The notes under the pieces are model-generated. The model was not told the origin of the DNA. It saw only the letters and a program-made list of their open reading frames with translations, and made no database searches. Of a stretch of DNA of 60,980 nucleotides, positions 9,135 through 56,298 are shown one piece after another (position 1 is the stretch's first letter; every line of letters starts with the position of its first letter). Position numbers and translations under genes: made by a program. This stretch comes from Ignavibacteria bacterium. Its GTDB lineage: Bacteria; Bacteroidota; Ignavibacteria; Ignavibacteriales; SURF-24. Where the stretch lies: the NCBI GenBank assembly GCA_025612375.1, contig JAAXKN010000029.1, positions 1-60,980 of the forward strand, written 5' to 3'.

Positions 9135-9153
9135 CTATTGAAAGGAGGTCAAC

Positions 9154-11817: not shown

Positions 11818-11825
11818 GGAGAACA

Positions 11826-11851: not shown

Positions 11852-11855
11852 ATAT

Positions 11856-15585: not shown

Positions 15586-15593
15586 GTGAAATT

Positions 15594-15791
15594 ATGTATG
15601 ACTCTACTACTCGTGAAATAGTTAAAACGATTGAATATATCGCCGGAAAAGAAGCACCAGCAAAGATCGGTTCCGTATCTTTTTCTTATCCCAAACACGA
15701 AAATCCGAACACCGCTGGCCTCTTCTTCCTGGATATTTCTGAACTGGATGATGCGGATAATCCTTCCAGTAACGCGGATATATTGGGGTAA
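15594..15791 (+). CDS. Small tail protein, unknown
   Basis: A 65-residue protein starting at ATG 15594 with AGGTGAAATT just upstream; an earlier in-frame ATG overlaps the preceding gene and has no ribosome site. It ends three bases before the next start. Unknown family. Confidence 0.65.
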   Translation: MYDSTTREIVKTIEYIAGKEAPAKIGSVSFSYPKHENPNTAGLFFLDISELDDADNPSSNADILG

Positions 15792-15794
15792 CCA

Positions 15795-16784: not shown

Positions 16785-16793
16785 GAGGAGATT

Positions 16794-17879
16794 ATGAGCG
16801 TAATCAATGTTGGTAATTATCAAGATGTAAGCAACTCGTTGAATGGCAATTACAACGCTACCACCGGGCAGTTCCACGTCATTGTCAAAGACGATACGCA
16901 TAACGTTGGCTTGGAATCCATCCAAACAGACGACCTATTTATTCTCCCCTTAATCTCTTATTCTTCCAGTTCGGAGATTGCGCACCCGACCATCACCGCG
17001 CCTTCCGGCTGGACGCGCACTGGCTGGGTTGGGCCGCTCTATGAAGAGATTACCGGCTTGTATCTATATCGCTTTATCGAATATTACGTGCATCGCGTTA
17101 CTGGCGCTGATGATAAAGACTTTATCTTTTCCGTGAGCGATCCTGCCAAGTATGATTATTATGGCAGCTTTTGCGTTTCTTCTTTCCGTGGCGTGTCCGA
17201 TTATCACTTTGCGCCCGCCTCGCGCATTATGGCGGCTTACAATGCTACTTCGCCTTCACTCACCGCACAAGTTAATTCAGAACTGCTTGCCGCTTATTTC
17301 ACCGCATCGCCAACCAACGCCTCTTTAGGCTATAACATGAGCGTAGAGATTCCGAGCGGCTGGTCACAAGCGTCTATTCAATACACGGATACAGAATATT
17401 CACAGAAGGCTTATTTGCCAAGCGTAGTCGCTACGGATAATTGGGGCGATTTACGCGCCATCTATACTGCTCTGCGCATGTCTGGCGTAACTTCTAACGT
17501 AACAGTCAACTGGGGAGTCACCAATCCTGCCAGTTGGTCTGTCGCCATGTTTGGGTTACTGCCAAGCGGAACCGCAACGCATGAAGTCTCTATCGCCATC
17601 CAGCCGATGATCGGCAACTGCGGCTTAAATGGCACCTACCAATTCTCAGCCGCAGTTTACGAAAGCGTCGATCAAACAGTCAACTGGTCTGTAGTTGAGG
17701 AAAATGGTGGCAGCATCACTAGTGATGGCCTATATACTGCGCCCGCTACCGCAGGTGTGTATCACGTCAAGGCCGCATTGCCAAGTGATGCAAACAAATA
17801 CGCCACCGCCGCCATCACTGTGACCGACAACGAAGCCTCTACTTTTCGTTTGCAATTTAAGCGAATTGGGATTGTGTAA
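16794..17879 (+). CDS. Fibre protein with C-terminal Ig-like domain
   Basis: A 361-residue Ser/Tyr/Thr-rich protein. Residues about 265-350 match a bacterial Ig-like (BIG-type) pattern: QTVNWSVVEENGGSIT then SDGLYTAPATAGVYHVKA. Such domains in phage virions bind surface glycans weakly. The N-terminal 250 residues look like a beta-sandwich adhesive domain. Preceded by AAGAGGAG; overlaps the next start (TAATG). Confidence 0.7.
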   Translation: MSVINVGNYQDVSNSLNGNYNATTGQFHVIVKDDTHNVGLESIQTDDLFILPLISYSSSSEIAHPTITAPSGWTRTGWVGPLYEEITGLYLYRFIEYYVHRVTGADDKDFIFSVSDPAKYDYYGSFCVSSFRGVSDYHFAPASRIMAAYNATSPSLTAQVNSELLAAYFTASPTNASLGYNMSVEIPSGWSQASIQYTDTEYSQKAYLPSVVATDNWGDLRAIYTALRMSGVTSNVTVNWGVTNPASWSVAMFGLLPSGTATHEVSIAIQPMIGNCGLNGTYQFSAAVYESVDQTVNWSVVEENGGSITSDGLYTAPATAGVYHVKAALPSDANKYATAAITVTDNEASTFRLQFKRIGIV

Positions 17880-19453
17880 TGCCAATCAAGACTGTCCGAG
17901 TAACAAAACAACAAATTTCCGAAATCAGTCAAATAGCCGTTCCAGTAAACAATCCCTGGTTGCCCTGGATTGATTATGGTGTAAAGCCAAGCCAGCAACG
18001 TGGCAGTATTTTAGCCATCATCCCCACGACCGCGAAAAACAAAGAGCGATTACAACGCTGTCTCGCCGCGCTGAAAAATGCCGCCAATGGGGTAGACTTG
18101 CGCATCATGCTGGTTGTTTGTCCAAATACGCCGGAGGCATTACAAACAGCAAGAGAGGTAGATACTAACGCGGCGATTATCTCCTTAGACCCGCCCTTTA
18201 ACTTTTGCAGGAGCATCAATACGGCGATTAGTGAGATGCGTGCTGATGAAGGTTACGCGCTCTTACTCAATGACGATTGTTTCTTTACCGGCACGCAGGA
18301 TCTCAAAAAGCTGCTCGATACACTAACGCAAAATGGCTGGGCGTGCGTGGGGCCGTGGCTTGACAATCGGATTAAAACCGAACCGGACTCGAACCGCACC
18401 TATCAAGCGCGACGTGTTAATAGCCCGATCCCTGGCACTTGTGTGTTATGGGATCGTTACTGGCTGAAGCGTGTCGGGCAGTTTGACTTAGCTTTCGGTA
18501 AAGGTTGGGGCCTTGACGAATCCGACTATTCCATGCGCTGCCTGCGACTAGGAGGTGTTTGGGGTAGAGATGAAAGCGTATTGGCAATTCACGAAGATCA
18601 CCAATCATTCGGGGATCATTACGCCAACATCAACAGCCCTGCTTATCACATTAGTCTTACCGCATGGCGTGAGAAGTATCACATGGATGCCACCTGGGGC
18701 GGTGATCCCTGGTGGAACCCGCTCCCCGGTATTCACGTCGCCATCGCGGGGAATAACGTCGCGCCATGGATTGAAAGATGCCTGGATTCCGTCGAACGAG
18801 CGATGGCAGGCTATCGCTGGATTTTAACCTATGCCGACGACGCCTCGACTGATAACTCCGTTGAATTGGTCAAACGTCACGCTAGTTCTGCTGATCACGT
18901 CGGCATTATGACTTTTCCGAAAGCCGCAAACGCAGGACAGGCGAAAAACCGCGCAATCTTCATGGGGCAGCTATTCCGCGACCGTTATCCGGCACTAATG
19001 TTGATGGACGCCGATGATGTGATGGGAGTAGATCGAGTACATCACACTTTGTGGCGGGCGCGTGACGGGGGCAACCTCATGGTGCATGGCGCATTTACGC
19101 ACATCGGCAACAAGATACCGCCAGACCTCTCGCCGATTGTGCAGCCGCAAATGATTGATCAGCAGTTGCAGGGCTGGATTCATCCCTGCAGCACTGTTAT
19201 CCACGCCTCGCTCATTCCACAAGACGGTAAATTGTTTGATGAAACCGTGCCTATTTGCGAAGACGCACTCCTCTTCCTCCAATGGTGGCTTAATGGAATA
19301 CGCAGCCAAGCCCTGCCGGGGCCAATCATTCACGAATATCATATTCGCGCCAACTCTGTTATGTACGATCAGGCAGTCAATAAACGTGATAATTTGATGG
19401 TGCAATATTTACTGCGTCGTTCACATGTATTAGAACAACACATTACCAAGTGA
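17879..19453 (+). CDS. Tandem GT-A glycosyltransferase
   Basis: A 524-residue protein with two glycosyltransferase-2-like modules. Module 1 (about 40-250): AIIPTTAKNKERLQRCLAAL, LLLNDDCF and a late GWGLDESDYSMR region. Module 2 (about 285-500): VAIAGNNVAPWIERCLDS, YADDASTDNS and the metal-binding LMDADDVMG. The order nucleotide-binding strand, DxD/DD motif, acceptor region fits GT-A folds. It sits inside the fibre operon, so it may glycosylate a fibre or another virion protein; alternatively it modifies host surface or DNA. Acceptor unknown. Confidence 0.85.
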   Translation: MPIKTVRVTKQQISEISQIAVPVNNPWLPWIDYGVKPSQQRGSILAIIPTTAKNKERLQRCLAALKNAANGVDLRIMLVVCPNTPEALQTAREVDTNAAIISLDPPFNFCRSINTAISEMRADEGYALLLNDDCFFTGTQDLKKLLDTLTQNGWACVGPWLDNRIKTEPDSNRTYQARRVNSPIPGTCVLWDRYWLKRVGQFDLAFGKGWGLDESDYSMRCLRLGGVWGRDESVLAIHEDHQSFGDHYANINSPAYHISLTAWREKYHMDATWGGDPWWNPLPGIHVAIAGNNVAPWIERCLDSVERAMAGYRWILTYADDASTDNSVELVKRHASSADHVGIMTFPKAANAGQAKNRAIFMGQLFRDRYPALMLMDADDVMGVDRVHHTLWRARDGGNLMVHGAFTHIGNKIPPDLSPIVQPQMIDQQLQGWIHPCSTVIHASLIPQDGKLFDETVPICEDALLFLQWWLNGIRSQALPGPIIHEYHIRANSVMYDQAVNKRDNLMVQYLLRRSHVLEQHITK

Positions 19454-19460
19454 GGGCAAA

Positions 19461-19721
19461 ATGGCTGAATATCGAGTTATTGACCAGGACACGATAGAGA
19501 TTATTGCGCAAAATACGCAGGTTGTGCGACTTTCCGAGTTGGAAAACGAACTGGCAAATATACAGCGGGCAAACCAGGATGCCGAGGAATTATTGCGTTG
19601 GAGAGAGTCTCTCCAGCAAGATAAGCAACAATATGTTGTGCTGCTGCCGCTGCAAGACACCGCCGATTTAGAGGCCCAGATTAATATATTGAGGGGTGTC
19701 ATCAATGGCAATAACGTTTGA
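19461..19721 (+). CDS. Small coiled-coil protein
   Basis: An 86-residue protein, ATG at 19461 after GAGGGCAAA. Residues 20-60 are a coiled coil (LSELENELANIQRANQDAEE). Between glycosyltransferase and a fibre gene, it resembles tail-fibre-region assembly or tether proteins. Overlaps the next gene by 17 bases. Confidence 0.65.
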   Translation: MAEYRVIDQDTIEIIAQNTQVVRLSELENELANIQRANQDAEELLRWRESLQQDKQQYVVLLPLQDTADLEAQINILRGVINGNNV

Positions 19722-21294
19722 TCAACCGGCGAATATTGACCGTATTTACTACTACAAGAAAAACACCAACACTTACGCTAAACGAGCCAGCACAACCAAT
19801 TTCGATTTGTTCCCCGAGGACGCGGCTGTCGGTGATTGCATGGTTTTTGCGACCAACCAATTCCCTTGGCACAACCTCACCCTAAACATCACCACACCCC
19901 TTGTTGCTGCCTCAATTAGCGTTGTCTGGGAGTACGCAATAAACTCATACTCCTGGTCGGCTATCCCTGATGTTAATGACGGCACGAACGCGTTTCGCAA
20001 TTCGGGCACGGTGTCGTTTTCAGTGCCAAACGCGATGAGCATCGCCTACGTGAAATCGTATCCCGATCAAGGCGTCGCAATTCGTTGCCGCATTACGGCT
20101 GTTTCTGGCTTGACTGAGGGTGGCGCGAATTCTGGGTTAACGGCAACGGTATTGGATTGGGCGTTGCATTTAGACGGCGCGGTCTACACCCCTGCGGATT
20201 TGCAGACAACAAGCGACACTAACGGTTGGGGCGTTGTTTCCAGCATCAATAACGCCTACCAAATAGACTCGAATGTGTTTATCGGGAAATCGGCTGCAGC
20301 AACCTGGCAGTTATCTAATTGCTTTGTAACGATTGGAACCGCGACTAATCTCAGATCGCTCCAGATGGTTGGCGCTTCCAAATTGCAATTGGGAAACCTG
20401 GTCAACGGGATGTCCGCTAATGGAGCGACCTTGCGTTATTACCCGTATTCAAACACCCAACCGTATAACACGTGGAGTGCTGCTTCGACCTTCAATATGT
20501 ACGATTCGTTTTTTTGGAAACCACAGGGGTCTTTTAACGAGGTTTCAATATCAAGTGTTTGCGACATACGTAACAGCATTTTATCCGGAGATGCGTATTA
20601 CTTTCCAAGCAATTCTACCGGCCAAATCCTAGACACCACCCTGGAATGCAACGGGCGGTCAACGTATTTCTATTCCAAACTCATGGCGATCTCTAACTTG
20701 CTAATCGCCAATGCGGGCGGAGTCTACTTAGGAACACCTGATGCCCGTATTACCAATACTGATTTTGGTAGTGACAAGAAAGCGAGCGCGGTAAATTATA
20801 ACCTAACCGTCTATGCGCAGGACTGTGATTTTGTAGATTACGATACTCAGGTCAATAACGGGTCGCTCACCAATACGATCCACGCGCAATACACCGTAAT
20901 ATTATCGGTTGCGGATACCGACGGCAACGCGATTGATGGCGCTCACGCTACCCTGGTGAATTCCACGGGAAGTATTATATACGATGGCGACGCCTTTCCA
21001 GCGAATGGCTTGCTGGTCACTACATACACGGCACGGGGAGTTGATGGCGTACAGGTTCGCTCACACCTCGATCCATTCACCCTGACGATCACTAAACGCG
21101 GCTACGAACCATACACCCGTATTTTTAATATTAACAATAATACTCGTAGAGTGTATGCAGTGCTCTCGCTAGTCAAACAACAGCCCGGCGTCCTGGATGT
21201 GGTGAATTCCGTGACCGGGGCAAATCCCGCATCCAGTAATAATCAAGTTGGCATACAAAGCAAGAATACAACTGTAGAGGTGAAAAATGGCTGA
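19705..21294 (+). CDS. Large fibre / receptor-binding protein
   Basis: A 529-residue protein. ATG at 19705 preferred over GTG at 19696 because GAGGGG sits 8 bases before it. The N-terminal part binds through beta strands; the middle (residues 190-390) has short repeats typical of a beta-helix (LRSLQMVGASKLQLGNLVNG, DIRNSILSGDAYYF). The C-terminal 100 residues match a carboxypeptidase regulatory-like domain (ADTDGNAIDGAHATLVNS, ITKRGYEPYTRIFNI). A likely adhesin. Confidence 0.75.
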   Translation: MAITFDQPANIDRIYYYKKNTNTYAKRASTTNFDLFPEDAAVGDCMVFATNQFPWHNLTLNITTPLVAASISVVWEYAINSYSWSAIPDVNDGTNAFRNSGTVSFSVPNAMSIAYVKSYPDQGVAIRCRITAVSGLTEGGANSGLTATVLDWALHLDGAVYTPADLQTTSDTNGWGVVSSINNAYQIDSNVFIGKSAAATWQLSNCFVTIGTATNLRSLQMVGASKLQLGNLVNGMSANGATLRYYPYSNTQPYNTWSAASTFNMYDSFFWKPQGSFNEVSISSVCDIRNSILSGDAYYFPSNSTGQILDTTLECNGRSTYFYSKLMAISNLLIANAGGVYLGTPDARITNTDFGSDKKASAVNYNLTVYAQDCDFVDYDTQVNNGSLTNTIHAQYTVILSVADTDGNAIDGAHATLVNSTGSIIYDGDAFPANGLLVTTYTARGVDGVQVRSHLDPFTLTITKRGYEPYTRIFNINNNTRRVYAVLSLVKQQPGVLDVVNSVTGANPASSNNQVGIQSKNTTVEVKNG

Positions 21295-23931: not shown

Positions 23932-25419
23932 ATGCCAACGTTTGACCCGATTGTTCAGTTGATTGACGCCCCGCGCAAAACCTTCCAAACCGGCGTGGCC
24001 GCAGCGAAAACCTGCTACGCCAAAGATTTCGTCACTCCAGACGAAGTAGATCATGTTGGTGAAGATTTTTCAAAAGGCATCTATCAAGCTGGACACCATA
24101 CGGTAAATCAACATGCGAATTTCACCTTCGCCATTAGTGGGGTGTCAAGGCATTTTGTCTGGTCGTTCCTGCACACGCATCCGTTTTACAATAGCAGCCA
24201 ACAATCACAACGGTATGTCGATGCCGGTGTTGTTGGTTATGTCACCCCTTCGATGTCGGATAAGGCAGCGGCGATCTACAAAAGCACGGTAGAAGAAATG
24301 ATCCTGTGCTACTACCAATTATGTGACCTGCTTTTTCAGCCTGCTTGCGAAGAGTATTTTAAGCGTTTTCCGGCACGCAAAAAGAATGAGCGCGATTGGT
24401 ATAGTCAAACCAGCAAGATCGCCATGGAGAATGCCCGCTACGTCTTGCCAATTTGCATGACTACACGGCTTTATCACACGGTAGATGCGACCACGCTGAT
24501 GCGGTATTGGCACCTGCGCAATACCGGAGACGCCAAAGAAGAACAGGATATAGTCGCTACCAAAATGGTGCAGGCTGTCTGCAACTCCGAACCGAAATAC
24601 CGCGCTCTGCTCTCCTGCAATCTGGAGTATCCAGACTACCCGGAAGAATACCATCGTCGTTTCGGGAGCACGGAAAAGTATATCCGCTCTTTCGACATGG
24701 CGCTAGGCGGGCGGATGAGCAGACTATTCACTTACACGAACGACGCGGCTTACGTGACCGCCACGGCAGTGCGCGACGTGCTTGGGTTATTCCCTAGCGA
24801 AATGAGCGACCAAATGGCGTTGGAGCATGCGCTAAATCCTGCTTACTCTCCGGCCCTGGCAGAAACATTGCGCCCAACCCGTCAAACGAAACTTGGCGCT
24901 TGTTTAACGCACGCGCACTTCACGTTTGCCAAGCGGCTCAGCCATACGGCGGACTCACAAAACCAACGTCACCGCATGGTGAGCGCCAGCAGGCCACTGC
25001 TCAGTAACTACATTGGCAGTCAACCGGATTGCACGATGCCAAAAATGATCGCCAAACATTCCAAGGCCAGAGATGTATTCGAGCACGCCATGGAGGTTAG
25101 TTGGCATTGTGCTAATATACTTAACAATGAGGAGGGCTTTGTCTACATTTTACCGAATGCGCTCAACATTCGCATGACTGAAACCGGATCTCTCGCTGAC
25201 CTGCAGCACAAATACGCCACGCGGCTGTGCCTTAACGCGCAAGATGAAATTCGAGAGGCCAGCATGCAAGAAGTTGAGCAAATTGGCGAAGTATTTCCAG
25301 AAATCGCCAAATTTCTCGCGCCTTCATGTGTATTACGCAATATGGCTGGCATGGATCCGTATTGCAATGAAGGACAAAGATTTTGTGGGAGGAGTGCATG
25401 GAATCAAAAGACCGTCTAA
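23932..25419 (+). CDS. thyX: ThyX-like flavin-dependent thymidylate synthase (double-length)
   Basis: A 495-residue protein, about twice a normal ThyX. It would methylate dUMP with FAD and methylene-tetrahydrofolate. Two ThyX-like halves are visible: SRHFVWSF...SSQQSQRYV at about 80-105 and SQNQRHRMVSASRPLL at about 343-358. The classic RHRx7S signature is complete in neither half, since the position after RHRx7 is not Ser. Long ThyX-like proteins of this type exist in bacteria and may or may not be catalytic. The dCMP deaminase two genes later makes dUMP, which supports a thymidylate role. Confidence 0.8.
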   Translation: MPTFDPIVQLIDAPRKTFQTGVAAAKTCYAKDFVTPDEVDHVGEDFSKGIYQAGHHTVNQHANFTFAISGVSRHFVWSFLHTHPFYNSSQQSQRYVDAGVVGYVTPSMSDKAAAIYKSTVEEMILCYYQLCDLLFQPACEEYFKRFPARKKNERDWYSQTSKIAMENARYVLPICMTTRLYHTVDATTLMRYWHLRNTGDAKEEQDIVATKMVQAVCNSEPKYRALLSCNLEYPDYPEEYHRRFGSTEKYIRSFDMALGGRMSRLFTYTNDAAYVTATAVRDVLGLFPSEMSDQMALEHALNPAYSPALAETLRPTRQTKLGACLTHAHFTFAKRLSHTADSQNQRHRMVSASRPLLSNYIGSQPDCTMPKMIAKHSKARDVFEHAMEVSWHCANILNNEEGFVYILPNALNIRMTETGSLADLQHKYATRLCLNAQDEIREASMQEVEQIGEVFPEIAKFLAPSCVLRNMAGMDPYCNEGQRFCGRSAWNQKTV

Positions 25420-25859
25420 TGCTTCCGACTCAGATGCCGGAATACGCGATATGGAAACGTATTCACCAAAGCTGCTACAATCGTTATTCCAGTCAGTATA
25501 AAAATTGTGGCGCTTTGGGCATCAAAGTCGCCGAAGAATGGAGCACCTTTCGCGGCTTTCTGCGCAGCATGGGCCGTCGCCCTGATGATCGGCCATATTT
25601 CGTGAGAAGGGATAAGACAAAGGATTTTTGCCCATCAAACTGCATTTGGGGCACATTAGAGGATAAAAATCGCTATTCTTTACACCAGCGCAACATCAGT
25701 TTTAATGGAGAAACCCATTCAATCGCTGAATGGAGTAAAAAACTAGGAATCCGATCAAGCACCATTTCTAGTAGGTTAAGGGCTGGATGGCCGCTGCAGT
25801 CTGTTTTCGGTCAACCCTCACACTGGAAGTCTAACAGATTGGGAGAGAAAAAACAATGA
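25398..25859 (+). CDS. Homing-endonuclease-like / AP2-type protein
   Basis: A 153-residue protein with NUMOD-type and AP2-like features: MPEYAIWKRIHQSCYNRYSS, then ALGIKVAEEWSTFRGFLRSMG, then HSIAEWSKKLGIRSSTISS, a small HTH segment. Such proteins are free-standing mobile homing endonucleases or their relatives in phages. Start at 25398 after GGGAGGAG, overlapping the ThyX end. Inserted in the operon between two nucleotide-metabolism genes, typical of such elements. Confidence 0.7.
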   Translation: MESKDRLMLPTQMPEYAIWKRIHQSCYNRYSSQYKNCGALGIKVAEEWSTFRGFLRSMGRRPDDRPYFVRRDKTKDFCPSNCIWGTLEDKNRYSLHQRNISFNGETHSIAEWSKKLGIRSSTISSRLRAGWPLQSVFGQPSHWKSNRLGEKKQ

Positions 25860-26494
25860 ATTATCTACACACTGGACTAGCTTCTAAAGACAATATGCGC
25901 CCTTCCTGGCACGAGTATTTCTTGGACTTGGCAATCAAGGCAGCAACGCGCTCAACCTGCACCCGTGCTCACCATGGTGCGGTGATTGTGCGCGATAAGA
26001 ATGTGATCTCCACCGGCTACAACGGCAGCGCCCCTGGCGCTCCGCACTGCGATGATGTTGGCTGCGAAGTAGAGAATTTTCACTGTCAGAGATGCCTCCA
26101 CGCGGAAATGAATGCGATCATCCAGGCGGCGAAAAATGGCGTGCGCACCAAAGATGCTGATATGTATGTCACCGCCTTACCGTGCTACAACTGCATCAAA
26201 GCGATTGCCAATGCCGGTATTTACACCGTGTATTATGCCGGTTACTATACTGACGATCCGCGAGTGTATCAAGTAGCGCGTGAGGCTGGCGTCCGCATGG
26301 TGGATTTGTCTCAGCCGCCGTTCAACCTGAAATCCTACCAGGAGCGGCTTAATGAGGCGGAGATGCAAGAAGAGACTACAGACGAACCGCAAGACACACC
26401 AGATTACGATGAACTCTGCCGTAAGATGAAGGAATTTGCCGAAAATTTCTTTGGCATTATGCCGAACGTGCGTGTTGAAGTCGAACACGACTAA
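25856..26494 (+). CDS. dCMP deaminase
   Basis: A 212-residue zinc deaminase converting dCMP to dUMP for thymidylate synthesis. Motifs: CLHAEMNAI at about 81-89 (zinc His and proton-shuttle Glu) and PCYNC at about 107 (two zinc Cys). Extra cysteines (CDDVGCEV, CQRC) fit the regulatory-type phage deaminases with an extra zinc. The C-terminal 50 acidic residues are an extension. It overlaps the endonuclease gene by 4 bases and ends at a bidirectional terminator. Confidence 0.9.
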   Translation: MNYLHTGLASKDNMRPSWHEYFLDLAIKAATRSTCTRAHHGAVIVRDKNVISTGYNGSAPGAPHCDDVGCEVENFHCQRCLHAEMNAIIQAAKNGVRTKDADMYVTALPCYNCIKAIANAGIYTVYYAGYYTDDPRVYQVAREAGVRMVDLSQPPFNLKSYQERLNEAEMQEETTDEPQDTPDYDELCRKMKEFAENFFGIMPNVRVEVEHD

Positions 26495-31154: not shown

Positions 31155-31563
31155 TCCTTTGTGAAAGAATATTTATGCACTGCTCAAAAATATGCCCTAC
31201 TAAATAGGCGAACGGTTCGTCATTCTCGGTATCCGGGTTTGCGTTAATCGCCGCGTAAATGCCATTCGCGGCATGCACGCACTCATGCACCAGATCACAA
31301 ATAGTGTTTTGGCCTTTGAAGCCATCCAACCAAATCACGCGGTTCCACTTATCACGTGCCGCAAACTCCAAATAACAGCCAGTCCAGCCATCCTCATAAT
31401 TAAAAGGGATCTTGAACTTGCGCTGCATCCAGCCGTTCATTTCTTCGACCGAACCGATTACTAGCGTGCAGTCGTAACCATACACCGGCACTGAAAAAGA
31501 CTTGGTGAAGAAAGGGAGCTTACTTTCCGCATTTGTTCGCTCCGCTACGGTCGGTTTTAGCAT
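31117..31563 (-). CDS. Putative zinc metallopeptidase, phage type
   Basis: A 148-residue protein with a HExxH motif HECVHAA at about 91-97, then TENDEPFAYLVGHIFEQ, where a downstream acidic residue could complete the zinc site. Small SprT-like or gluzincin-like phage proteins share this layout. Start ATG 31563 and overlaps with both neighbouring genes. Substrate unknown. Confidence 0.65.
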   Translation of the reverse strand: MLKPTVAERTNAESKLPFFTKSFSVPVYGYDCTLVIGSVEEMNGWMQRKFKIPFNYEDGWTGCYLEFAARDKWNRVIWLDGFKGQNTICDLVHECVHAANGIYAAINANPDTENDEPFAYLVGHIFEQCINILSQRSAADAKAKTAAA

Positions 31564-32428
31564 TTGTGCTTTTTCTCCTATTCTTTGAGGTGTCTTTGTT
31601 AGCCATCAACACCCCCCTTCCGGTGCCAAGATAAGCAACCGGGATCTGCCATAATCCTTCCAGATAGTCAACAAATGCTATACTGGAAGGATGGAGCTTG
31701 TCATACTCATTAACATCACGATCTCTGGGGCTAATGTAATCCAGATAAGTAGCGATAAACGCATTCGGTCTGTTCACAAACACGGCACGTGATAGTGATT
31801 GCGCATCAAAATCGATCACTTTTCTTTCATTAGAAACAGCACGCGCTCTTACTACCATTAACACGGTCAATAAACTTAAAGGTATCCCAACTTCCGAAGA
31901 AAGCGTGTTGATGGTTGTGTCGTAAGCGGACTCCACAACCCCATTTCCGTTATAGGGTGATAACTCAAAGCCGCCTTCGCCCTCAATGATCACCTCGCCT
32001 TGTTTGGCGGCGCTGATGATCAAGCTCGTGGTATTGTCTACAATCTCAATATCGCGGTCTTTGCAGAAATTGACAAACGGTTCAAAATCCTTCACCATGG
32101 TGAAGGAGTGATATAAAGTGCAGCTACCGTCAATAATGATCCGATGGCGCAGGTTGGCATCAAACTTCGATAAGTATTGCAACTCTTCGTAAAAGACCGC
32201 CGGATTTAAACGCGTGCCCTTGCCAATGCAGAGCACCGTGTCTTCATGCTGCCAGCCGGAAGGGATAAACTCAGTGGTGTATTTATTGCCCTGCCAGTAA
32301 GTTGTCTTCGTCATGCCCGGCTTGCCGCAACGCACGTTCAACTCGCACCCTTTAGATAAACACGCTACCACATCCCCCTTGCCCTCGTGCCCATATTGGG
32401 AGCCGATAACAGCGTAAATATTTCCCAT
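31520..32428 (-). CDS. Adenylosuccinate synthetase-like protein (PurA/PurZ family)
   Basis: A 302-residue protein aligning with PurA across the P-loop-like start (IGSQYGHEGKGDVV; E. coli GTQWGDEGKG) and the FIPSG segment, and later with NRPNAFIATYLDYI and FVDYLEGLWQIPVAYLGTGRG. The catalytic Asp of PurA is His here (residue 14), and the GHT His aligns with Lys. Phage PurZ makes the succino-intermediate for 2-aminoadenine genomes and also lacks that Asp. A 25-residue Lys/Ser-rich tail follows. Function is uncertain: PurZ-like, other purine-base ligase, or regulatory. Shorter than PurA (about 430). Confidence 0.75.
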   Translation of the reverse strand: MGNIYAVIGSQYGHEGKGDVVACLSKGCELNVRCGKPGMTKTTYWQGNKYTTEFIPSGWQHEDTVLCIGKGTRLNPAVFYEELQYLSKFDANLRHRIIIDGSCTLYHSFTMVKDFEPFVNFCKDRDIEIVDNTTSLIISAAKQGEVIIEGEGGFELSPYNGNGVVESAYDTTINTLSSEVGIPLSLLTVLMVVRARAVSNERKVIDFDAQSLSRAVFVNRPNAFIATYLDYISPRDRDVNEYDKLHPSSIAFVDYLEGLWQIPVAYLGTGRGVLMANKDTSKNRRKSTNAKTDRSGANKCGK

Positions 32429-49500: not shown

Positions 49501-49548
49501 TTAACCGCTCATTAGAGCGCCACAGTATGGCGCTCTATCAACGGTTAA
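49501..49548 (-). ncRNA. Recurrent CTCATT/ATCAA hairpin element, copy A
   Basis: Outer stem TTAACCG/CGGTTAA, conserved CTCATT, inner stem AGAGCGCC/GGCGCTCT, conserved ATCAA (+ strand letters). The stop codon of 49545-49742 lies in the outer stem. See findings. Confidence 0.8.
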
Positions 49549-49742
49549 TAACTTTTGACTGGACTGTTTAACAAACTCCTTCCACAGATAGAGCATTTTC
49601 CTTGCGGTTTTTCAGCCTCACAAGGAATTACATCCTCGATGCTGCCTACCGGAATACCGTTTTCGCGGTAATATTTTCTGTAGCAGCACTGATGCACATA
49701 GCCTCCACGATTATTCTTACCAATGCCATAAACAGTATTCAT
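49545..49742 (-). CDS. Small zinc-ribbon-like protein
   Basis: A 65-residue protein with HQCCYRKYY and CSICGRS, likely one zinc site. ATG at 49742 after GGAAGGAAAT; an upstream GTG is rejected. Stop codon lies in hairpin element A. Confidence 0.6.
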   Translation of the reverse strand: MNTVYGIGKNNRGGYVHQCCYRKYYRENGIPVGSIEDVIPCEAEKPQGKCSICGRSLLNSPVKSY

Positions 49743-49760
49743 ATTTCCTTCCACGATAGC

Positions 49761-50240
49761 CTATACGCGATAGATAAAGTATTCTCCTTCCTGGTGTTCG
49801 ATGCAGTCGTAGAAGGCCAAGAAATGACCCCGCCCATCCGCGGCCACCGCGTCGTTAACGAAGTCATAAAGGTCGTCTATCATGACTTTTATGAGCGCAT
49901 TACTGTTATCACACAACCTATCTTGCATGTCAGCGAGTGCGTTTTGTAACTCAACCGTGTTGTCAACACCACTCACATGATCCAGGATAAACGACGGTCT
50001 GAATGACCATAGCGAGTCGGTTACAGCATCGTAACACTTTGAGTCAGCTTCAAGGTCAGTGAGGATCATATACTCCTCACCTTCGCACTCAAACCTATTG
50101 TCGCCAAGCGCCTTCACCTTGGCATCAGGCTTGTTAAGCAACCGACGCAAGGCCGCAGGACGCGTACCACCACGAGGCAAATCATCTATCTCAGTCATTG
50201 TGAGTTGCATCCCACAGTGCGGGCATGTTACTCTCTTCAT
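49761..50240 (-). CDS. Zinc ribbon protein with HFLAxYD family end, copy 2
   Basis: A 159-residue protein: N-terminal zinc ribbon CPHCGMQLT, middle ATPase-free domain, then a C-terminal half paralogous to the protein at 45662-46099 (DSLWSFRPSFILDHV; DGRGHFLAFYDCIEHQEG; YFIYRV). Confidence 0.65.
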   Translation of the reverse strand: MKRVTCPHCGMQLTMTEIDDLPRGGTRPAALRRLLNKPDAKVKALGDNRFECEGEEYMILTDLEADSKCYDAVTDSLWSFRPSFILDHVSGVDNTVELQNALADMQDRLCDNSNALIKVMIDDLYDFVNDAVAADGRGHFLAFYDCIEHQEGEYFIYRV

Positions 50241-50263
50241 CGTGCTTCCCCCTATTTGGTGAT

Positions 50264-50437
50264 TTACGGCGTCACAATCGGCACCATTTGGATAGAGGTA
50301 CCGTTATGAATTGGAACGATCTGCACTGACGGAACGCGGCCATCGTCTTTCGGCCAGCCGTAGAAATGAACCAGCAAGCAGGCCAGCAGCAACGCGCCAA
50401 CGATCCATTTCATACAGTACCAATCGAAATCATCCAT
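50264..50437 (-). CDS. Small single-pass membrane protein
   Basis: A 57-residue protein: short N-terminus, a membrane segment (WIVGALLLACLLVHFYG), then a polar Pro-rich tail (SVQIVPIHNGTSIQMVPIVTP). ATG at 50437 after GGGGGGAAA. Downstream of a 16-bp stem-loop. Unknown function. Confidence 0.65.
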   Translation of the reverse strand: MDDFDWYCMKWIVGALLLACLLVHFYGWPKDDGRVPSVQIVPIHNGTSIQMVPIVTP

Positions 50438-50450
50438 GCGTTTCCCCCCA

Positions 50451-50487
50451 GGTCAGTAGAGTATAGCTTACCTATACTCTACTGACC
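50451..50487 (-). repeat. 16-bp perfect stem-loop before membrane gene
   Basis: GGTCAGTAGAGTATAG and its complement with a 5-base loop between 50495 and 50437. No T run; likely mRNA structure or protein site. Confidence 0.6.
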
Positions 50488-50494
50488 GCGTGAT

Positions 50495-51109
50495 CTACTC
50501 GTCTTCGTCTTGCGGATCAAGCCGGCCCGGACGCGAGCGATACGCGTCCGGCTGCTTGAAGTAGTCGTCAATCAGGCCCTTCATGTCCTCCAGCTCGGCG
50601 GCCAGGGCATCCAAGTCGGCCTTCACCCGTTTCACCATGGTGGTATCCTGGCGAATGCTCTGGTGTTCGGCCAGCGACTGCAGCAAGGCCGCCCCCGCCA
50701 TGGTGGAAAGCGACGGCTGTGAGGCTTCCTGCCAAGTGGCCGGGAAGTCCGGCGTGTCCGCGTCGGTGTCGGTGCGATTCTTCAGGTATTGCACCAACTG
50801 ACCGGCGAAACCGCCGAAATAGACCTCGTTTTCTGACGACTTGTCTTTTGTCGCGTACCACAGCACGGACGCCATCATATTAATCAGGCGACTGGCCGCG
50901 TCTCGCGTGTAGCTGGTGACTAAACGCAGTGCGCGTTCGTCAACCGCGCCATTACGGGCGGCGTACTCCATGATCTGACGCATTACCGGGCGAATGTTTG
51001 GCATCTGCGATGTTTCATGGAAGACGTCGGTGCCGGTGTCTTGCTCAATGTAACTGGCTAGACCGTTCATGAAACGGTCGGCATCGCGATTTCCGGTGTC
51101 GAATGGCAT
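50495..51109 (-). CDS. Hypothetical acidic helical protein
   Basis: A 204-residue mainly helical protein, ATG at 51109 after GGGGGAGGAAC. C-terminal Asp/Arg-rich tail. A 7-bp hairpin GCTAGGC/GCCTAGC lies at 51128-51147 before the ribosome site. Unknown. Confidence 0.65.
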   Translation of the reverse strand: MPFDTGNRDADRFMNGLASYIEQDTGTDVFHETSQMPNIRPVMRQIMEYAARNGAVDERALRLVTSYTRDAASRLINMMASVLWYATKDKSSENEVYFGGFAGQLVQYLKNRTDTDADTPDFPATWQEASQPSLSTMAGAALLQSLAEHQSIRQDTTMVKRVKADLDALAAELEDMKGLIDDYFKQPDAYRSRPGRLDPQDEDE

Positions 51110-51235
51110 TTTGTTCCTCCCCCTTATGCTAGGCATGATTGCCTAGCAAGACTGAATTTGGCATACAATTCGGTATACAATTCTATAGGCTAATTATTCG
51201 ATACACTAAGTAATGTTTTCGATTTTTTTCTTGTG

Positions 51236-51780
51236 TCGCAAAACTGTTGCACCATGCGGAAAAGGTGCCAATTATAACGCAACTTTTACCCCATTTGTTG
51301 CATCGTGTTGCAAAGTGTTGCATCATGCAACAAAATGGGAAAAATCACAACACGACTTTGGCACCAAAAATTGCATGGTAATCGCGCCGCAAAAACGGCC
51401 TAACTCGGGTCGAAAAATTAACGTCATAATTCGGCGCGATGCTAGACACCACGCCGATTCTTTGACTCAAGCGCGTGACGCAAATGGCTATGAAAATCAT
51501 GCCACGAAAATACCGAAAAAACTATGAAGCGATTTTCAGTTTTTCGTGGTACACTAATCGCGAACCCCCGTGCAACAGGTTGAAAAAACCCCATTTTTTC
51601 ACTATGCAACAGGGGTGTGCAACTTTTCGGTGAAAAGTTGCGTTATAATTGGCCACAAACTCAGGCGCCGTCTTTTTGTTGCATAACAATACTTTTTTGA
51701 AAATCTCGCGTATAAACCCGTGCAACAAAAAAAGTGTTGCATGCAACAACCCTAGGTTGTTGCGTGCAACACATTGCACC
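51236..51780. other. TGTTGCA iteron-like array, possible origin
   Basis: At least 12 exact TGTTGCA/TGCAACA copies in both orientations (51245, 51296, 51306, 51316, 51326, 51571, 51605, 51677, 51721, 51735, 51742, 51765) in a gene-free stretch. A 20-bp inverted repeat (51268-51287 / 51633-51652) flanks much of it. Iteron clusters plus inverted repeats and AT-rich stretches suggest an origin or a multi-site operator. No convincing gene in 51110-51815. Confidence 0.65.
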
Positions 51781-51815
51781 GCCACTTTTGCAGTGCCACA
51801 AAAACACTGCAAAAG

Positions 51816-52052
51816 TTAGGGCGGCGAGCGCGGGTTGTGGTCGCGCAGCGACCGCACCCAAGCGGCGAGAAGCCAGTAGTCGATCTTCGGGCTTCTCGCC
51901 ACCAAGCTCTTTTTCTCCAGTTGCACCACGTAGCTAAGGTAGGCGTCCGGGGGGCGCGTTCTCTCCCGGCGCTCGAACGCCAGGATCGAATCCCATTCCG
52001 ACCGGAACTGCGCCGTGTGAAGGCGCGTGAGTATTGCACGCCATAGGCCCAT
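51816..52052 (-). CDS. Small protein next to iteron array
   Basis: A 78-residue basic protein (ATG 52052; a longer start at 52118 is possible). Contains LEKKSLVARSPKIDYWLLAAW. Sits beside the repeat array, so a replication-initiator role could be imagined, but no motif supports it. Confidence 0.45.
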   Translation of the reverse strand: MGLWRAILTRLHTAQFRSEWDSILAFERRERTRPPDAYLSYVVQLEKKSLVARSPKIDYWLLAAWVRSLRDHNPRSPP

Positions 52053-52079
52053 ACATTCGCGTGTCTCCCTTCCTGAGCG

Positions 52080-52124
52080 TGATCGCTCACTGGAACGCCC
52101 GGTAAGGCGCTCCGTCAACGATCA
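52080..52124 (-). ncRNA. Recurrent hairpin element, copy E
   Basis: Outer TGATCG/CGATCA, CTCACT, inner GGAACGCC/GGCGCTCC (one mismatch), GTCAA. Matches the other four copies except for CACT and GTCAA at the loop. No gene stop is recognised here. Confidence 0.7.
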
Positions 52125-52364
52125 CCCCTTCTCTCACATGGTGAAAACAGGGTTTCGCGCCGTGCAACGCGTTTTCAGCCGTTTTAAGGCCCGTTTCTTT
52201 CGCGCATGGGTAATTAGTCGCGTGCGCTAGTTTCGTCGCTCTACGGGCACGCTAGGCCCTATTACGTCGATTTTAAGGGGGAAGACACCCCTCGGTATGC
52301 TCACAAGGGGCGTCTTCCAGGGGAACGCACAGCCTCACCATGGTGAAAGAAAACACATAACGCG

Positions 52365-52448
52365 TTTACAGGCGTTTTAAGCGGAGATTTTTTGTCGCAT
52401 GGCTAATTACCCGTCTGAGGGATAAAAGTCGCTTAAAACGCCTGTAAA
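52365..52448. repeat. 19-bp long inverted repeat with 46-bp spacer
   Basis: TTTACAGGCGTTTTAAGCG at 52365-52383 and its complement at 52430-52448. The gene-free stretch 52125-52508 also has CACCATGGTG; a related but shorter GTTTTAAGGCCCG copy lies at 52179. Possible origin component. Confidence 0.7.
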
Positions 52449-52508
52449 GTGCCTTTACGTCGATTTTAGCTGCATACGTTAGCTTGCACGGCGTGTTTCT
52501 TTCCCGTA

Positions 52509-52549
52509 ACCGCTCATTACTGCGCTCCGTAGAGCGCAGTATCAACGGT
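52509..52549 (-). ncRNA. Recurrent hairpin element, copy B
   Basis: Outer ACCG/CGGT, CTCATT, inner ACTGCGCTC/GAGCGCAGT, ATCAA. The stop of the metallopeptidase gene (52549-52551) is in the outer stem. Confidence 0.8.
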
Positions 52550-53460
52550 CAATCGTCGGTAATTAAGCCGTTTTCGCGTAATTCTTCCGGGCCGGGGTCG
52601 TAACCCGGCTTGCGGTAAATCGGGTCGTCGTCCTCCTTTCCGCCCGCGTAGAGGTCGTCTTCGTCGTAATTGTAGCCTAGCATTTCGCGCAGATTCTCCG
52701 CTTCGCCATCGTCTTTCTTGCTCCAACTGTAGCCGCGATCCCACCACGGTTCGTATTTGCCGCCCCAACCGTAGGTATACGCTTGCCGCAGCGGTTCGTA
52801 CTGGTGCGGCAGGAATACGTCACGATTGTTCTTGTAAAAGCGGGCGAATTTACGGATCTGGCCGGTGAGTTCGCCTAGGTTGGCGTAACAGTGCGTCGTG
52901 TGCGCCGCGTGGTAGCCGATCCCGACGTTGAAGGCCTTGCAACCTAGTTCGTCCATTACGCTGATGTCGCTGAAACTACCACAGCCTAGCTTAAAGCCAT
53001 AGTTTTTCAGCAAATTATCCAGTGTTTCATCGCCGTATTGGTAGGTTACCACGTCGGTTCCGGCACGGTCGAACTCCACGATCCAATTGTACTTTTTCTT
53101 GCAGTCAACGGCGAATATATCTGCCGTGCTCGCACCGTGTTCCTCACCTGTAGTCAGCAGTATATCCAGTGTGATACCAAGCCTAGGAAGTAGGTCAAGT
53201 AGCACATACGCTCCTAGTCGGTCGTCTAGTCTAGGCGATATAACTTCGTGGATACTGCCAGTCTTATTCTTGTATTCAACGAACATGTCGTGTGACTTAT
53301 CGTCAAATACAGTGTCCAGGTGAGCGACACCAAGGATCGGTGAGTTATTGTCGCGAAAAATGTATTCTTCTTCCGCGAAGCCGCCCGGCGTGCCGAACCG
53401 GCGGAAGTCGCCGATGTCGGCCAGACAGCGGTGACACAGGGTGTCTATGTCATATTTCAT
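52549..53460 (-). CDS. Zinc aminopeptidase-like protein (M28/M42 type)
   Basis: A 303-residue protein with a co-catalytic metallopeptidase pattern: GVAHLDTVF (HxD), RLDDRLGAYVLL (bridging Asp), LLTTGEEHG (catalytic Glu-Glu), VEFDRAG (Asp) and HAAHTTHCY (His). Residues 225-303 are an acidic tail. Such enzymes trim peptides in the cytoplasm. Purpose in a phage is unknown; host peptide-signal or toxin-antitoxin degradation is speculation. Confidence 0.8.
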   Translation of the reverse strand: MKYDIDTLCHRCLADIGDFRRFGTPGGFAEEEYIFRDNNSPILGVAHLDTVFDDKSHDMFVEYKNKTGSIHEVISPRLDDRLGAYVLLDLLPRLGITLDILLTTGEEHGASTADIFAVDCKKKYNWIVEFDRAGTDVVTYQYGDETLDNLLKNYGFKLGCGSFSDISVMDELGCKAFNVGIGYHAAHTTHCYANLGELTGQIRKFARFYKNNRDVFLPHQYEPLRQAYTYGWGGKYEPWWDRGYSWSKKDDGEAENLREMLGYNYDEDDLYAGGKEDDDPIYRKPGYDPGPEELRENGLITDD

Positions 53461-53489
53461 GCGTATTTCCCCCTTTTCCCTATTGAGCT

Positions 53490-53535
53490 TGATCGCTCAT
53501 TTGAGTCCTGCGTGACAGGACTCAATCAACGATCA
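53490..53535 (-). ncRNA. Recurrent hairpin element, copy C
   Basis: Outer TGATCG/CGATCA, CTCATT, inner TGAGTCCTG/CAGGACTCA, ATCAA. The stop codon of 53533-53823 is in the outer stem; just upstream GAGCTTGATCGCTC allows an alternative fold. Confidence 0.8.
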
Positions 53536-53823
53536 GACTTGGAAGGCGCTTGTGATAGCTTTCACAATGTCTTCTTCCGGCATCTGCCAGTCACGCGTGA
53601 GAATGACATAACGCGTGATCTTATACTGTGGTTTGATGTATTCAGTAAGCCCACAGTATTCCACATCATTACTAATGTGAAATCCGCCATCAAAGTTCAA
53701 GTCGCGAAGCGCGATCAATAATCGTGCTTCAAATTCCGTGTGTGTGGCACTGTCAATTATGAATTTTTCTTTATCCATTTCGACAGTGATCGTACGCATC
53801 GGCGGTTCAATCTTGATTTTCAT
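53533..53823 (-). CDS. Hypothetical protein
   Basis: A 96-residue protein, beta-rich N-terminal half (KIKIEPPMRTITVEMDKEK) and helical C-terminus. Sits between two hairpin elements; the same pattern as its neighbours. Unknown. Confidence 0.65.
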   Translation of the reverse strand: MKIKIEPPMRTITVEMDKEKFIIDSATHTEFEARLLIALRDLNFDGGFHISNDVEYCGLTEYIKPQYKITRYVILTRDWQMPEEDIVKAITSAFQV

Positions 53824-53846
53824 GTGTGTTTCCCCCCTAATGAGCG

Positions 53847-53895
53847 TGATCGCTCATTCTTGCACCATCCTCCAATGGTGCAAGATCAACGATCA
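53847..53895 (-). ncRNA. Recurrent hairpin element, copy D
   Basis: Outer TGATCG/CGATCA, CTCATT, inner CTTGCACCAT/ATGGTGCAAG, ATCAA. Stop of the zinc-finger protein is in the outer stem; GAGCGTGATCGCTC offers an alternative hairpin. Confidence 0.8.
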
Positions 53896-55215
53896 AGCGG
53901 TTACCAACTCCTCCTTGTTCGCTTGCGCGTCCTCGTAGCACTCGCGGCACAGGTGCTTTCCGGTTTCCTGGTCGTAGTAGTGCTGAGTCTTGAAGTGCAT
54001 TGCGCCGCACTCCTCGCACTCGAAGGCTTCCTGCGTGGCGCAGTCGTGACACCAGTAGTCGCCCTGCACCTCCACTGCGTCTTCGCTGCGAATCCAGGTG
54101 TCGCAGTGGTCGCAGCAGGTATAGTCGCCACATTCCAGACAGTGTTCGCACACGCCGTCGCCCCTCATGCCCTCTACTTCGGTCAGCGATTCGGTGTAGT
54201 AATTACCGCAGTCGCTGCACTCGTAGAGATGGCGGTCGGCGCAGTGCTGGCAGTAGGGATCTCCGGTGTCTTCGGCGTAAATCGCCTCGTCACGCGGGAT
54301 CCATTCGTCGCACCATTCGCACTGCACGAAACGCTCGTGCCAGCAGTCCGAACAGTAGATGTTGTCGTCTTCGTCGGTGTAGTAGTTGTCGTCGTCACCG
54401 TCAAGCGTTTCGCCGCAGACGCAGCAGACGCGCTCCGGCTGCAAGTCTTCCTCACGGAAATCCCAGGCGTCGATCCGGTCGATCATGTCCTGGCTTCCGA
54501 GGAGATAGCCGTGCGCCCCATTGATCCACAGCATGCCATCTGAGTCGCTATTGTTCCACAGCTCGATTTTCTTGTAGGGAACGCCCAAGTAGGACGCGAG
54601 AGTACGCGCCATTTTCAGGCATTCGATGCCGTAGGCGTTCCACAACACTAAGCCGTGCTGCTTCACGTCCTCTTGTTCGTAGGTGATCGGCGTCAGCCAT
54701 GCGCGAGCATAGCCGCGATAGCCTTCACCCCACACCGCACGTTCACGTCCACTTTCGTACGCACCTTCGATGCGTGCTTCGTAGAAACGCACCGCGTAAC
54801 TATTCATGTTTTCCAACATGTCACGCGCCGCGTTTCGACACGTCCAGTAGCATGAGCCGTGGTCGCCGAAGTCGCCGGACTGCCAAGAATGAATATCCTT
54901 GGTAAAGTCAATGGTGTAGTCCGTGGCTTCCTCGGCGTTGTAGGAAGCGATATTGCCCACTTCCGAAAGCGTCAGGGCGTCGATGGCAATCTGGTGATTC
55001 ACCTTATACCACTTCGCCAAACGCTTCGGGAAGGTGCCTCGCTTAGTGCTCCACACCCATTCAATCGCCTCTTCCGGCATGTACGGCAGATGCTGTGACG
55101 CTAAATAGTCGTAGATCAGCCGCCTGCCGGTCGAAGTGATGGCGTTTTTCGCCAGATGGACGTGAACCTTTTCCTGGCACGTCAATTCGTGAAGCTGCTT
55201 GTTAATCTCTTGCAT
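53893..55215 (-). CDS. Multi-zinc-finger protein
   Basis: A 440-residue protein. N-terminal 265 residues are a globular, Tyr/Trp-rich domain without a recognised motif. The C-terminal 170 residues have about six Cys4 zinc-binding pairs (VCCVCGETLD, YCSDCW, QCEWCDEW, YCQHC, ECSDCGNY, VCEHC, CCDHCDTW, WCHDC, ECEECGAM, LCRECY), like stacked treble-clef/LIM fingers. This end could bind RNA, DNA or protein. First gene downstream of the structured RNA region. Confidence 0.8.
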   Translation of the reverse strand: MQEINKQLHELTCQEKVHVHLAKNAITSTGRRLIYDYLASQHLPYMPEEAIEWVWSTKRGTFPKRLAKWYKVNHQIAIDALTLSEVGNIASYNAEEATDYTIDFTKDIHSWQSGDFGDHGSCYWTCRNAARDMLENMNSYAVRFYEARIEGAYESGRERAVWGEGYRGYARAWLTPITYEQEDVKQHGLVLWNAYGIECLKMARTLASYLGVPYKKIELWNNSDSDGMLWINGAHGYLLGSQDMIDRIDAWDFREEDLQPERVCCVCGETLDGDDDNYYTDEDDNIYCSDCWHERFVQCEWCDEWIPRDEAIYAEDTGDPYCQHCADRHLYECSDCGNYYTESLTEVEGMRGDGVCEHCLECGDYTCCDHCDTWIRSEDAVEVQGDYWCHDCATQEAFECEECGAMHFKTQHYYDQETGKHLCRECYEDAQANKEELVTA

Positions 55216-55255: not shown

Positions 55256-55880
55256 CACTAATGGCGCAAAGGAACGCCATTGGTGCAAGGAATTAGGGAG
55301 GGGAGAGGCATCCCTAAGCCTTGTCTTTCGACAGGGCCAAGGGATACCCCTCCCCGTGTTAGGGGGAAGGAAACACGCATAGCCAACACGCCTTGCCGTA
55401 AAACGGCTGTCAAGAGTCCCAACGCTTTAGCCGCACCGCCCCGCTCCCGTTGCCACGTATTCCCCACCATCCAGATGGTGTTGTTGCGTGTTTCCGCGAA
55501 GCGGATTGATTTCCGCCGGGTGCGTTCTCTTGCGTCTAGCAAGGCATGTCTAATCGCACTAACCTGCACGGGAGGATACCATCCTCCACGCTTACCGAAT
55601 CGCCTTTGGCGTAATCCTCCAGGCGAGCGCCGATGCTCGCAAGGATGCCTGGACTATCGATCCTGCGTTTTATACGGCATGTGCTCTTGTCAAGGTAAAA
55701 CCATGATTATTTATGCGCGTGTGCCAAACGCGCACCGAGTCCGCTTGTTCGCATAAAGCGATTGTGCGAAGGGATTCTATCCATAGGATCCTGCGCGGCG
55801 TTCCGTTTGTGGTGATACTACTGCCACATTCGGTTTGTGTTTCTAGCGCAGGGCTATTTTAGATAGATTCCCGCCCTTAA
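55256..55880 (-). ncRNA. Large structured non-coding RNA region
   Basis: A gene-free, GC-rich region dense in stems: GCCTTGTC-TTTC-GACAGGGC, CCAGGC...GCCTGG enclosing GAGC/GCTC, TTTATGCG...CGCATAAA enclosing a GCGCG-type stem, CCTGCGC...GCGCAGG, and CACTAATGGCG/CGCCATTGGTG at the left edge. Three strong minus-strand promoters lie upstream, so the likely strand is minus, though stems fold on either. Large phage RNAs such as GOLLD and ROOL are comparable in style; I cannot confirm identity. Confidence 0.55.
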
Positions 55881-56012: not shown

Positions 56013-56041
56013 AGTGTAGCATAACTTTAGTTTTGTGTCAA
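56013..56041 (-). promoter_or_regulatory. Tandem promoter P1
   Basis: Minus strand TTGACA (56036-56041), 17 bases, TACACT (56013-56018), TGC before the -10. Leftmost of three leftward promoters. Confidence 0.85.
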
Positions 56042-56168
56042 GAGTAAACTTCTTACCTTGTTCCCCGATAGCATCCGCTATTTGTTGGGGCATCTCAGTT
56101 TGCAAGTTTGCTCTAACACTTGCTAACGCTATGCTTTTGTGTAAGGTTCAATCAAACCGAACGCACTT

Positions 56169-56197
56169 AGTATAGCATACTGCTTATTCCCTGTCAA
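56169..56197 (-). promoter_or_regulatory. Tandem promoter P2
   Basis: Minus strand TTGACA (56192-56197), 17 bases, TATACT (56169-56174), TGC before the -10. Confidence 0.85.
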
Positions 56198-56269
56198 GAG
56201 TTTTTTCAAACTCTTTTTTCAAGTGTTTTCAGTATGCTGCTTTCAAAGTGCATCCTAACGAACAACGCT

Positions 56270-56298
56270 ATTATAGCAGGTTCAATACATACTGTCAA
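56270..56298 (-). promoter_or_regulatory. Tandem promoter P3
   Basis: Minus strand TTGACA (56293-56298), 17 bases, TATAAT (56270-56275), TGC before the -10. Perfect consensus. Confidence 0.9.

Follow-up and report, generated by a model that had tools for sequence, protein, structure and literature searches.

Five hairpins with a conserved central defect as putative RNase III-type processing sites in the early region of a tailed phage

Processing signals that recur between the genes of a single transcript are best known from phage T7. Here we describe five hairpins of a common build, elements A to E, in the intercistronic regions of a tailed-phage genome from an Ignavibacteria bacterium. The analysed stretch, called the window below, is the whole contig JAAXKN010000029.1 of a 5.2-Mb bacterial assembly and has a length of 60,980 bases. 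The elements belong to the mRNA (minus) strand, and the sequence of the window supports their predicted structure, the covariation among the copies, their strand and their placement. We hold with moderate confidence that they are RNase III-type processing sites in a long leftward early transcript of the phage; the nuclease, the cut site, the transcript itself and any effect on the mRNA are putative. Table 1 lists the elements together with the promoter-like sites ahead of them.

RNase III sites of the T7 type are irregular hairpins that span roughly two helical turns, carry a central defect and lie between the genes of one transcript. R1.1 of T7 has been described as an RNA of 60 nt whose internal loop is asymmetric, with 4/5 nt (PMC6121014); E. 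coli RNase III cuts it at a single bond to give fragments of 47 and 13 nt (PMC4858673). Three further phage systems share some features with the elements and were rejected as their class. The put RNA of HK022 is also a phage cis-acting structured RNA in early transcripts. It has about 70 nt and two stem-loops and follows each of two early promoters once (PMC9378689), whereas the elements are single hairpins in five copies, mostly between genes and 2-7 kb past promoter-like sites. The ESAS of cluster K mycobacteriophages are repeated inverted repeats upstream of starts, as are the elements; they have imperfect 17-bp arms, a spacer of mostly 4-13 bp and an adjoining 13-bp sequence, and lie ahead of the starts of some non-structural genes (PMC3203893). 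The elements differ in that their inner arms vary freely between copies, and the ESAS/SAS sequence of 13 bp, GGGATAGGAGCCC, gave 0 matches with up to two mismatches. Cluster O mycobacteriophages carry 17-bp palindromes with invariant 7-bp arms, of which there are 34 copies in Corndog, ten of them listed as lying inside genes (PMC4351075). These resemble the elements as repeated palindromes within one phage group, and their pattern is absent from the window. With Rfam 15 at the gathering threshold we found only three tRNAs in the window and no element family; between 49300 and 54100 six miRNA or snoRNA matches far under the threshold were reported, none of them on an element. Titles and abstract openings in the literature searched mention no such element, which may still be in print.

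Table 1. Positions and parts of the five elements and of the promoter-like sites in the window
Feature	Position	Strand	Outer stem	Defect strands	Inner stem	Model R1 score	Surroundings
Element A	49501-49548	-	TTAACCG/CGGTTAA (7 bp)	UUGAU/AAUGAG	10 bp	70.3 bits	TAA stop of 49545-49754 within outer stem; GTG 49478 downstream
Element B	52507-52551	-	TGACCG/CGGTTA (one G.U)	UUGAU/AAUGAG	9 bp	69.2 bits	TGA stop of 52549-53460 starts outer stem; downstream only a 7-codon frame (GTG 52489)
Element C	53490-53535	-	TGATCG/CGATCA	UUGAU/AAUGAG	9-10 bp	73.9 bits	TGA stop of 53533-53823 starts outer stem; ATG 53460 downstream
Element D	53847-53895	-	TGATCG/CGATCA	UUGAU/AAUGAG	11 bp	67.8 bits	TGA stop of 53893-55215 starts outer stem; ATG 53823 downstream
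Element E	52079-52125	-	GTGATCG/CGATCAC	UUGAC/AGUGAG	9 bp	72.0 bits	No gene seen directly upstream; downstream ATG 52056 (short frame) or ATG 52052
Three promoter-like sites	56013-56298; at 56298, 56197, 56041	-					Head of the leftward operon carrying the elements

Read along the minus strand, each element consists of an outer stem, UUGAY, a variable inner stem-loop, ARUGAG and the second side of the outer stem. A structural descriptor of this frame (UUGAY, inner stem of at least 6, ARUGAG, outer stem of at least 4) matched five times on the minus strand of the window and 0 times on the plus strand, and gave no match on either strand of 200 first-order Markov sequences. Model R1, a covariance model built from the five elements, separates them clearly from the rest of the window: the reverse strands of the copies score 12.8-26.6 bits and everything else at most 11.2. 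The original prediction had placed five copies here, and all of them are present. The ends of A, C and D are as it gave them, whereas those of B and E move outwards to the positions in Table 1 once the full outer stem is counted. It had described the frame on the plus strand, where four of the five copies match the motif CGCTCATT-N-ATCAACG exactly (mean of 0.01 in shuffled sequences) and E has CTCACT and GTCAAC instead, which at the RNA level is a paired U-A to C-G change. The strand of the RNA is the minus strand.

The covariation model comprises 20 pairs, 11 of which change on both sides, and 97% of its cells are paired. Its covariation score of 0.655 compares with 0.238 in shuffled sequences and with at most 0.125 when the partner strand was slid, a control that is biased as the structure was drawn from the same sequences. 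None of 500 shuffles reached an equally high value on any of five measures. All of these values describe five paralogous copies within one genome. The two sides of the outer stem change together, as had been claimed, and inner pairs come in as many as four types. The claim that the inner stems are unrelated holds in so far as they are largely exchanged between copies, yet A and E share GAGCGCC. With stems that covary and a loop motif that is kept, the elements look selected for both, in line with the original prediction.

Its internal loop, however, has to be given up. On the minus strand UUGAY and ARUGAG are mostly paired with each other (U.G, U-A, a G.G mismatch, A-U, Y-R and a bulged A adjoining the inner stem), which closes the two supposed loops into one helix. 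The predicted structure of each of the five elements is thus a single helix of about 20 bp, interrupted mid-way by a G.G mismatch and a bulged A, and this asymmetric defect is retained in each copy while the stem sequences change. The predicted fold of every copy agrees with the pairing scheme, apart from the position of the bulge. Folding energies on the minus strand range from -30.4 to -36.3 kcal/mol with z from -6.1 to -8.3 in all five copies (B gave -28.8 kcal/mol in a separate fold). Such variation among natural copies, with exchanged stems around a fixed defect, points to the bases that matter. We also considered a K-turn-like motif, in which tandem sheared G.A pairs might arise between AAU-GA-G on the 3' side and UGA on the 5' side and serve as the site of an L7Ae-type protein. 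AAU-GA-G facing U-GA resembles the kinked strand of box C/D-type k-turns. In a kink-turn a 3-nt bulge is followed by tandem G.A pairs directly adjoining the C stem, whereas here GA and the inner stem are separated by one extra base (Y17). The replacement of U-A by C-G in E, although a single event, supports Watson-Crick pairing of this base with a would-be bulge base. We regard this motif as very unlikely.

Among the 100 pair cells on the minus strand 89 are Watson-Crick, 8 are G.U, 1 is A.C and 2 are T.C. Since all copies lie on the gene strand, G.U exceeds A.C by 8:1 and the plus-strand folds of A and D (the two tried) are weaker than the minus-strand ones, an RNA of the coding strand is favoured. 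The same observations bear on a DNA-level origin, be it a mobile palindrome, a site of replication or recombination, or a mere semblance of covariation produced by templated quasi-palindrome mutation. Copying did occur, as C, D and E have flanks that are 67-78% identical over 36 nt and that probably stem from common descent. All five copies are nevertheless oriented as the genes are, and the excess of G.U cells again argues against DNA, with the reservation that five of the eight represent one invariant U.G pair. Templated repair would moreover be expected to erase the mismatch and the bulge, yet both are kept. A DNA-level repeat was already disfavoured on these grounds, and we give it hardly any weight.

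The placement of the elements follows the gene boundaries. In A to D the stop codon of the upstream gene (TAA, TGA, TGA and TGA, respectively) is part of the outer stem, as had been predicted for four copies; A has UAA in place of UGA, with a matching change in the opposite strand of the stem, and the codon remains a stop. A Shine-Dalgarno-like sequence and a start follow A, C and D, again as predicted, and E likewise. The distance from the hairpin base to the start codon is 22-29 nt for A, C, D and E and 17 nt for B. Four of the five elements thus precede a plausible gene (for E, ATG 52052 opens a 78-aa frame ending at 51816, its start being read from the sequence), and B precedes only its very short GTG frame. 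Between 55.2 and 45.7 kb there are 18 junctions, three of which hold one element each and one of which, a long one, holds both B and E. Random placement relative to genes and stop codons had been named beforehand as an outcome that would refute the prediction. It is unlikely, with chances of about 5e-6 for the placement at stops and 1e-5 for that before starts, figures that apply to genes chosen by hand and windows fixed after seeing the data, with one small gene (50438-50270, no element there) entered with inexact ends. The AUG of AAUGAG also opens tiny frames, by eye MSDHAH in D and MSDQAQ in C, for which we saw no ribosome site of their own.

That ordinary termination does not fit is confirmed by the sequence, which has no T run after the stem. 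A scan for intrinsic terminators gave nothing within the elements beyond a partial stem of 5 bp at 49506-49519, and we rejected this class. The elements could still act passively as hairpins that stabilise or insulate the 3' ends of mRNAs by stopping ribosomes and exonucleases, with no specific recognition. The stop codon at the hairpin base in four of the five copies would suit such a role, as would a perfect 16-bp hairpin that lacks the motif and occupies an equivalent junction (50451-50487, minus strand), after the stop at 50495 and before the next ribosome site. A passive hairpin has no need of an invariant asymmetric defect, however, and a perfect stem would serve better, so we find this explanation improbable. 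Three functions had been suggested originally, namely RNase III-type processing, a termination-reinitiation switch and a binding site for a phage protein. Processing fits best, given the size of the hairpins, their central defect and a spacing like that of T7. Against the switch stand the gaps at A, C and D, which at 66-72 nt are long for coupling, and the Shine-Dalgarno-like sequences that the genes after A, C, D and E have of their own.

One transcript would span all five elements, and its source would be the three promoter-like sites at the head of the leftward operon, 2-7 kb upstream of the elements. They were called from matches to the sigma-70 consensus. Each has TTGACA, 17 nt and a second hexamer of TATAAT, TATACT or TACACT preceded by TG, with 10-12 of 12 consensus matches. 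The region contains 10 promoter-like sites compared with 7.9 expected from shuffles, and these three are among the four that score best. As three spaced, near-perfect sites they resemble the T7 early promoter cluster A1-A3. The leader of the operon also contains a very strong hairpin at 55297-55360 on the minus strand (-47.5 kcal/mol over 64 nt).

We compared the elements with six T7 sites (R0.3, R0.5, R1, R1.1, R1.3 and R4.7), folded around their cut positions. Eight T7 sites were folded in all; R3.8 and R6.5 were dropped as they did not give hairpins of this kind. Both sets consist of intercistronic hairpins that are alike in length and have a central defect, occur in several copies per transcript region, lie behind strong host-type promoters (promoter-like sites in the case of the elements) and have, in some copies, a stop codon at or near the hairpin base. 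With the cut of the elements set by analogy to T7, the stop lies 33-37 nt before the cut in 4/4 elements and 35-39 nt before it in three of five T7 sites (54 and 65 in the others). From the cut to the start there are 27-39 nt in all five elements, including the doubtful start of B, and 27-35 nt in five of six T7 sites, R1.1 with 120 nt falling outside this range. Part of this agreement is built in by the choice of the cut position, which does not apply to the distance from stop to start. On the 3' loop strand four of the six T7 sites read AU^GA at the cut and the elements AAUGAG or AGUGAG. The sets differ in the defect, a G.G mismatch plus one bulged A in the elements and a 4/5-nt loop in R1.1, and in the upper stem, where much sequence is kept among the T7 sites and exchanged among the elements.

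By this analogy, the copies in the early mRNA would fold into the hairpins of about 20 bp with the fixed central defect UUGAY/ARUGAG, and a double-strand-specific nuclease, most likely the RNase III of the host, would make a single cut in the 3' strand of the defect, at A(A/G)U^GAG. The cut would leave the upstream gene with a hairpin-like 3' end, and the message of the downstream gene would then begin 27-39 nt ahead of the start codon. When AAU^GAG is modelled as the cut, the 5' ends of C, D and E start with GAGC(G)...(C)GCUC and fold as a flush terminal hairpin of 4-5 bp, which may slow decay. A 5' hairpin is able to stabilise bacterial mRNA according to one report (PMC3997798). The terminal hairpins of C, D and E count as one observation because their flank is shared, probably by descent. 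In the uncut RNA, too, the GAGC(G) of C, D and E can pair with the following (C)GCUC in place of the outer stem (53484-53499, 53841-53856 and 52074-52089, minus strand), giving an alternative hairpin directly before the ribosome site.

Several points weigh against processing by RNase III. The cleavage is deduced from structure and placement, and among the modelled processed 5' ends those of A and B form no flush terminal hairpin. Fourteen of the 18 junctions have no element (the plain 16-bp hairpin lies at one of them), and B and E do not fully fit the layout of a gene stop followed by the next gene. With two RNase III family models, which match in 9/14 and 8/14 control genomes, we found no RNase III gene in the assembly of the window itself. 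The gene is present in three of five genomes of the family of this assembly. It is likely missing here through an assembly gap, since gcvPA, which adjoins rnc in a genome of the same genus, is missing too. Model R1 found no T7 site in T7 1-20000 (best score 7.9 bits), and model R2, built from the six T7 sites, found none of the five elements in the window; R2 also matches T7 at 18503-18576, outside its training set, with 32.1 bits. As neither model recognises the sites of the other set, the elements and the T7 sites would be alike in working and not homologous. The layout is already known from T7, and the recognition motif appears to be this phage's own.

The strict conservation of the loop and of its closing bases next to free stems also exceeds what RNase III is known to need. 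It would suit a sequence-specific protein. The chief rival of processing is that an RNA-binding protein of the phage or the host, such as a translational regulator, an antitermination factor or a decay factor, binds the elements by reading the UUGAY/ARUGAG defect and controls several early genes jointly. The loop and the closing C-G/G-C bases are invariant or covarying in all five copies while the inner stems are exchanged. Such a binder could be among the early proteins, since 18 of 20 lack a Pfam match at the limits used; within these 18, a peptidase-like protein of the early operon (52549-53460, minus strand) has a PHROG match (phrog_4191, E 1e-13). The hairpins end 17-29 nt before the start, though, so a bound protein would not directly cover the Shine-Dalgarno region, which is already mostly unpaired in four of the five copies (0.77-0.96; E 0.51), and no dedicated RNA-binding domain was named among the proteins scanned, a subset of the frames. 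We consider protein binding possible, if rather unlikely. Somewhat more doubtful is a phage-specific code of RNA recognition, where one protein or nuclease would read UUGAY/ARUGAG within free stems, and so process or regulate a group of early genes, and the stop codon in the base would let terminating ribosomes open or close the site. Should RNase III-type processing prove true, the elements would be a second, unrelated set with a layout similar to that of T7, and phages would have reinvented the splitting of a long early message.

The element is so far an orphan, with no relative in the collections searched. Model R1 matched only the own genome among 196 genomes of relatives. Among 391 genomes of the class it matched the own genome and gave three weak matches of 22.6-28.6 bits, which keep the outer frame and skip the inner part wholly or partly; the two sets overlap, and searches of more than 40 genomes use stricter filters that lose weak matches. 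A GATCG-class pattern found 8 stretches with 14.5-24.3 bits in a genome collection of 84,980 species and 0 stretches in viral contigs, where other pattern scans found at least 120 stretches in one case and 52 in another. In 170 frame matches in fetched loci the best inner arm has 6 bp (L028) compared with 9-11 in the elements, and the pattern matches in viral and genome contigs are chance-like. A Gemmatimonadales locus (L195, 2543-2592) contains a palindrome ahead of a short frame. The palindrome has arms of 24 nt that are 88% complementary and shares the outer frame, its loop does not fit, and we treated it as probably due to chance.

The phage itself has no close relative in the collections searched either. 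Terminase, portal, capsid, tape measure, DNA polymerase, a primase-type protein and an exonuclease were recognised in the window and identify a tailed phage. Among 50,697 phages megablast matched neither the first 25 kb nor the stretch at 48.9-57.0 kb, and blastn of 49.4-54.0 kb gave zero matches. With tblastn against phages we found 9 records for the terminase, 9 for the major capsid protein, 676 for the primase-type protein and 1,373 for the polymerase, all below 60% identity, and zero for the peptidase-like protein. Viral contigs gave zero matches for the peptidase-like protein, a 440-aa protein and the terminase, and a single capsid relative (L137, 44% identity); its record, which at 32.6 kb may be a fragment, contains no element. 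The capsid protein matched only the own genome among the 391 genomes of the class, and two of its peptide patterns found zero in the genome-contig collection. The polymerase resembles bacterial polymerase III alpha, and its matches in bacterial genomes are probably host DNA polymerase III alpha genes. The source bacterium is the putative host; the phage has a G+C content of 49% compared with 41-48% in six measured stretches elsewhere in the same assembly, one of them an rRNA stretch. The ends of the contig (1-261 and 60720-60980) form an imperfect direct repeat of 261 bases, 27 of which differ, and this may be a diverged terminal repeat.

Other features of the window include an adenylosuccinate synthetase-like gene at 31520-32428 on the minus strand (Pfam E 8e-19, N-terminal part of the profile) and, on the plus strand, a ThyX-like gene at 23932-25419 and a dCMP deaminase-like gene at 25856-26494. 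Together they possibly point to modified-base metabolism. Dense GTTGCA/TGCAAC repeats with palindromes occupy a stretch with no clear gene at 51240-51775. The stretch at 52160-52450, which separates B from E, has blocks around GCGTTTTAAGCG that are duplicated and inverted, and includes a perfect inverted repeat of 19 bp.

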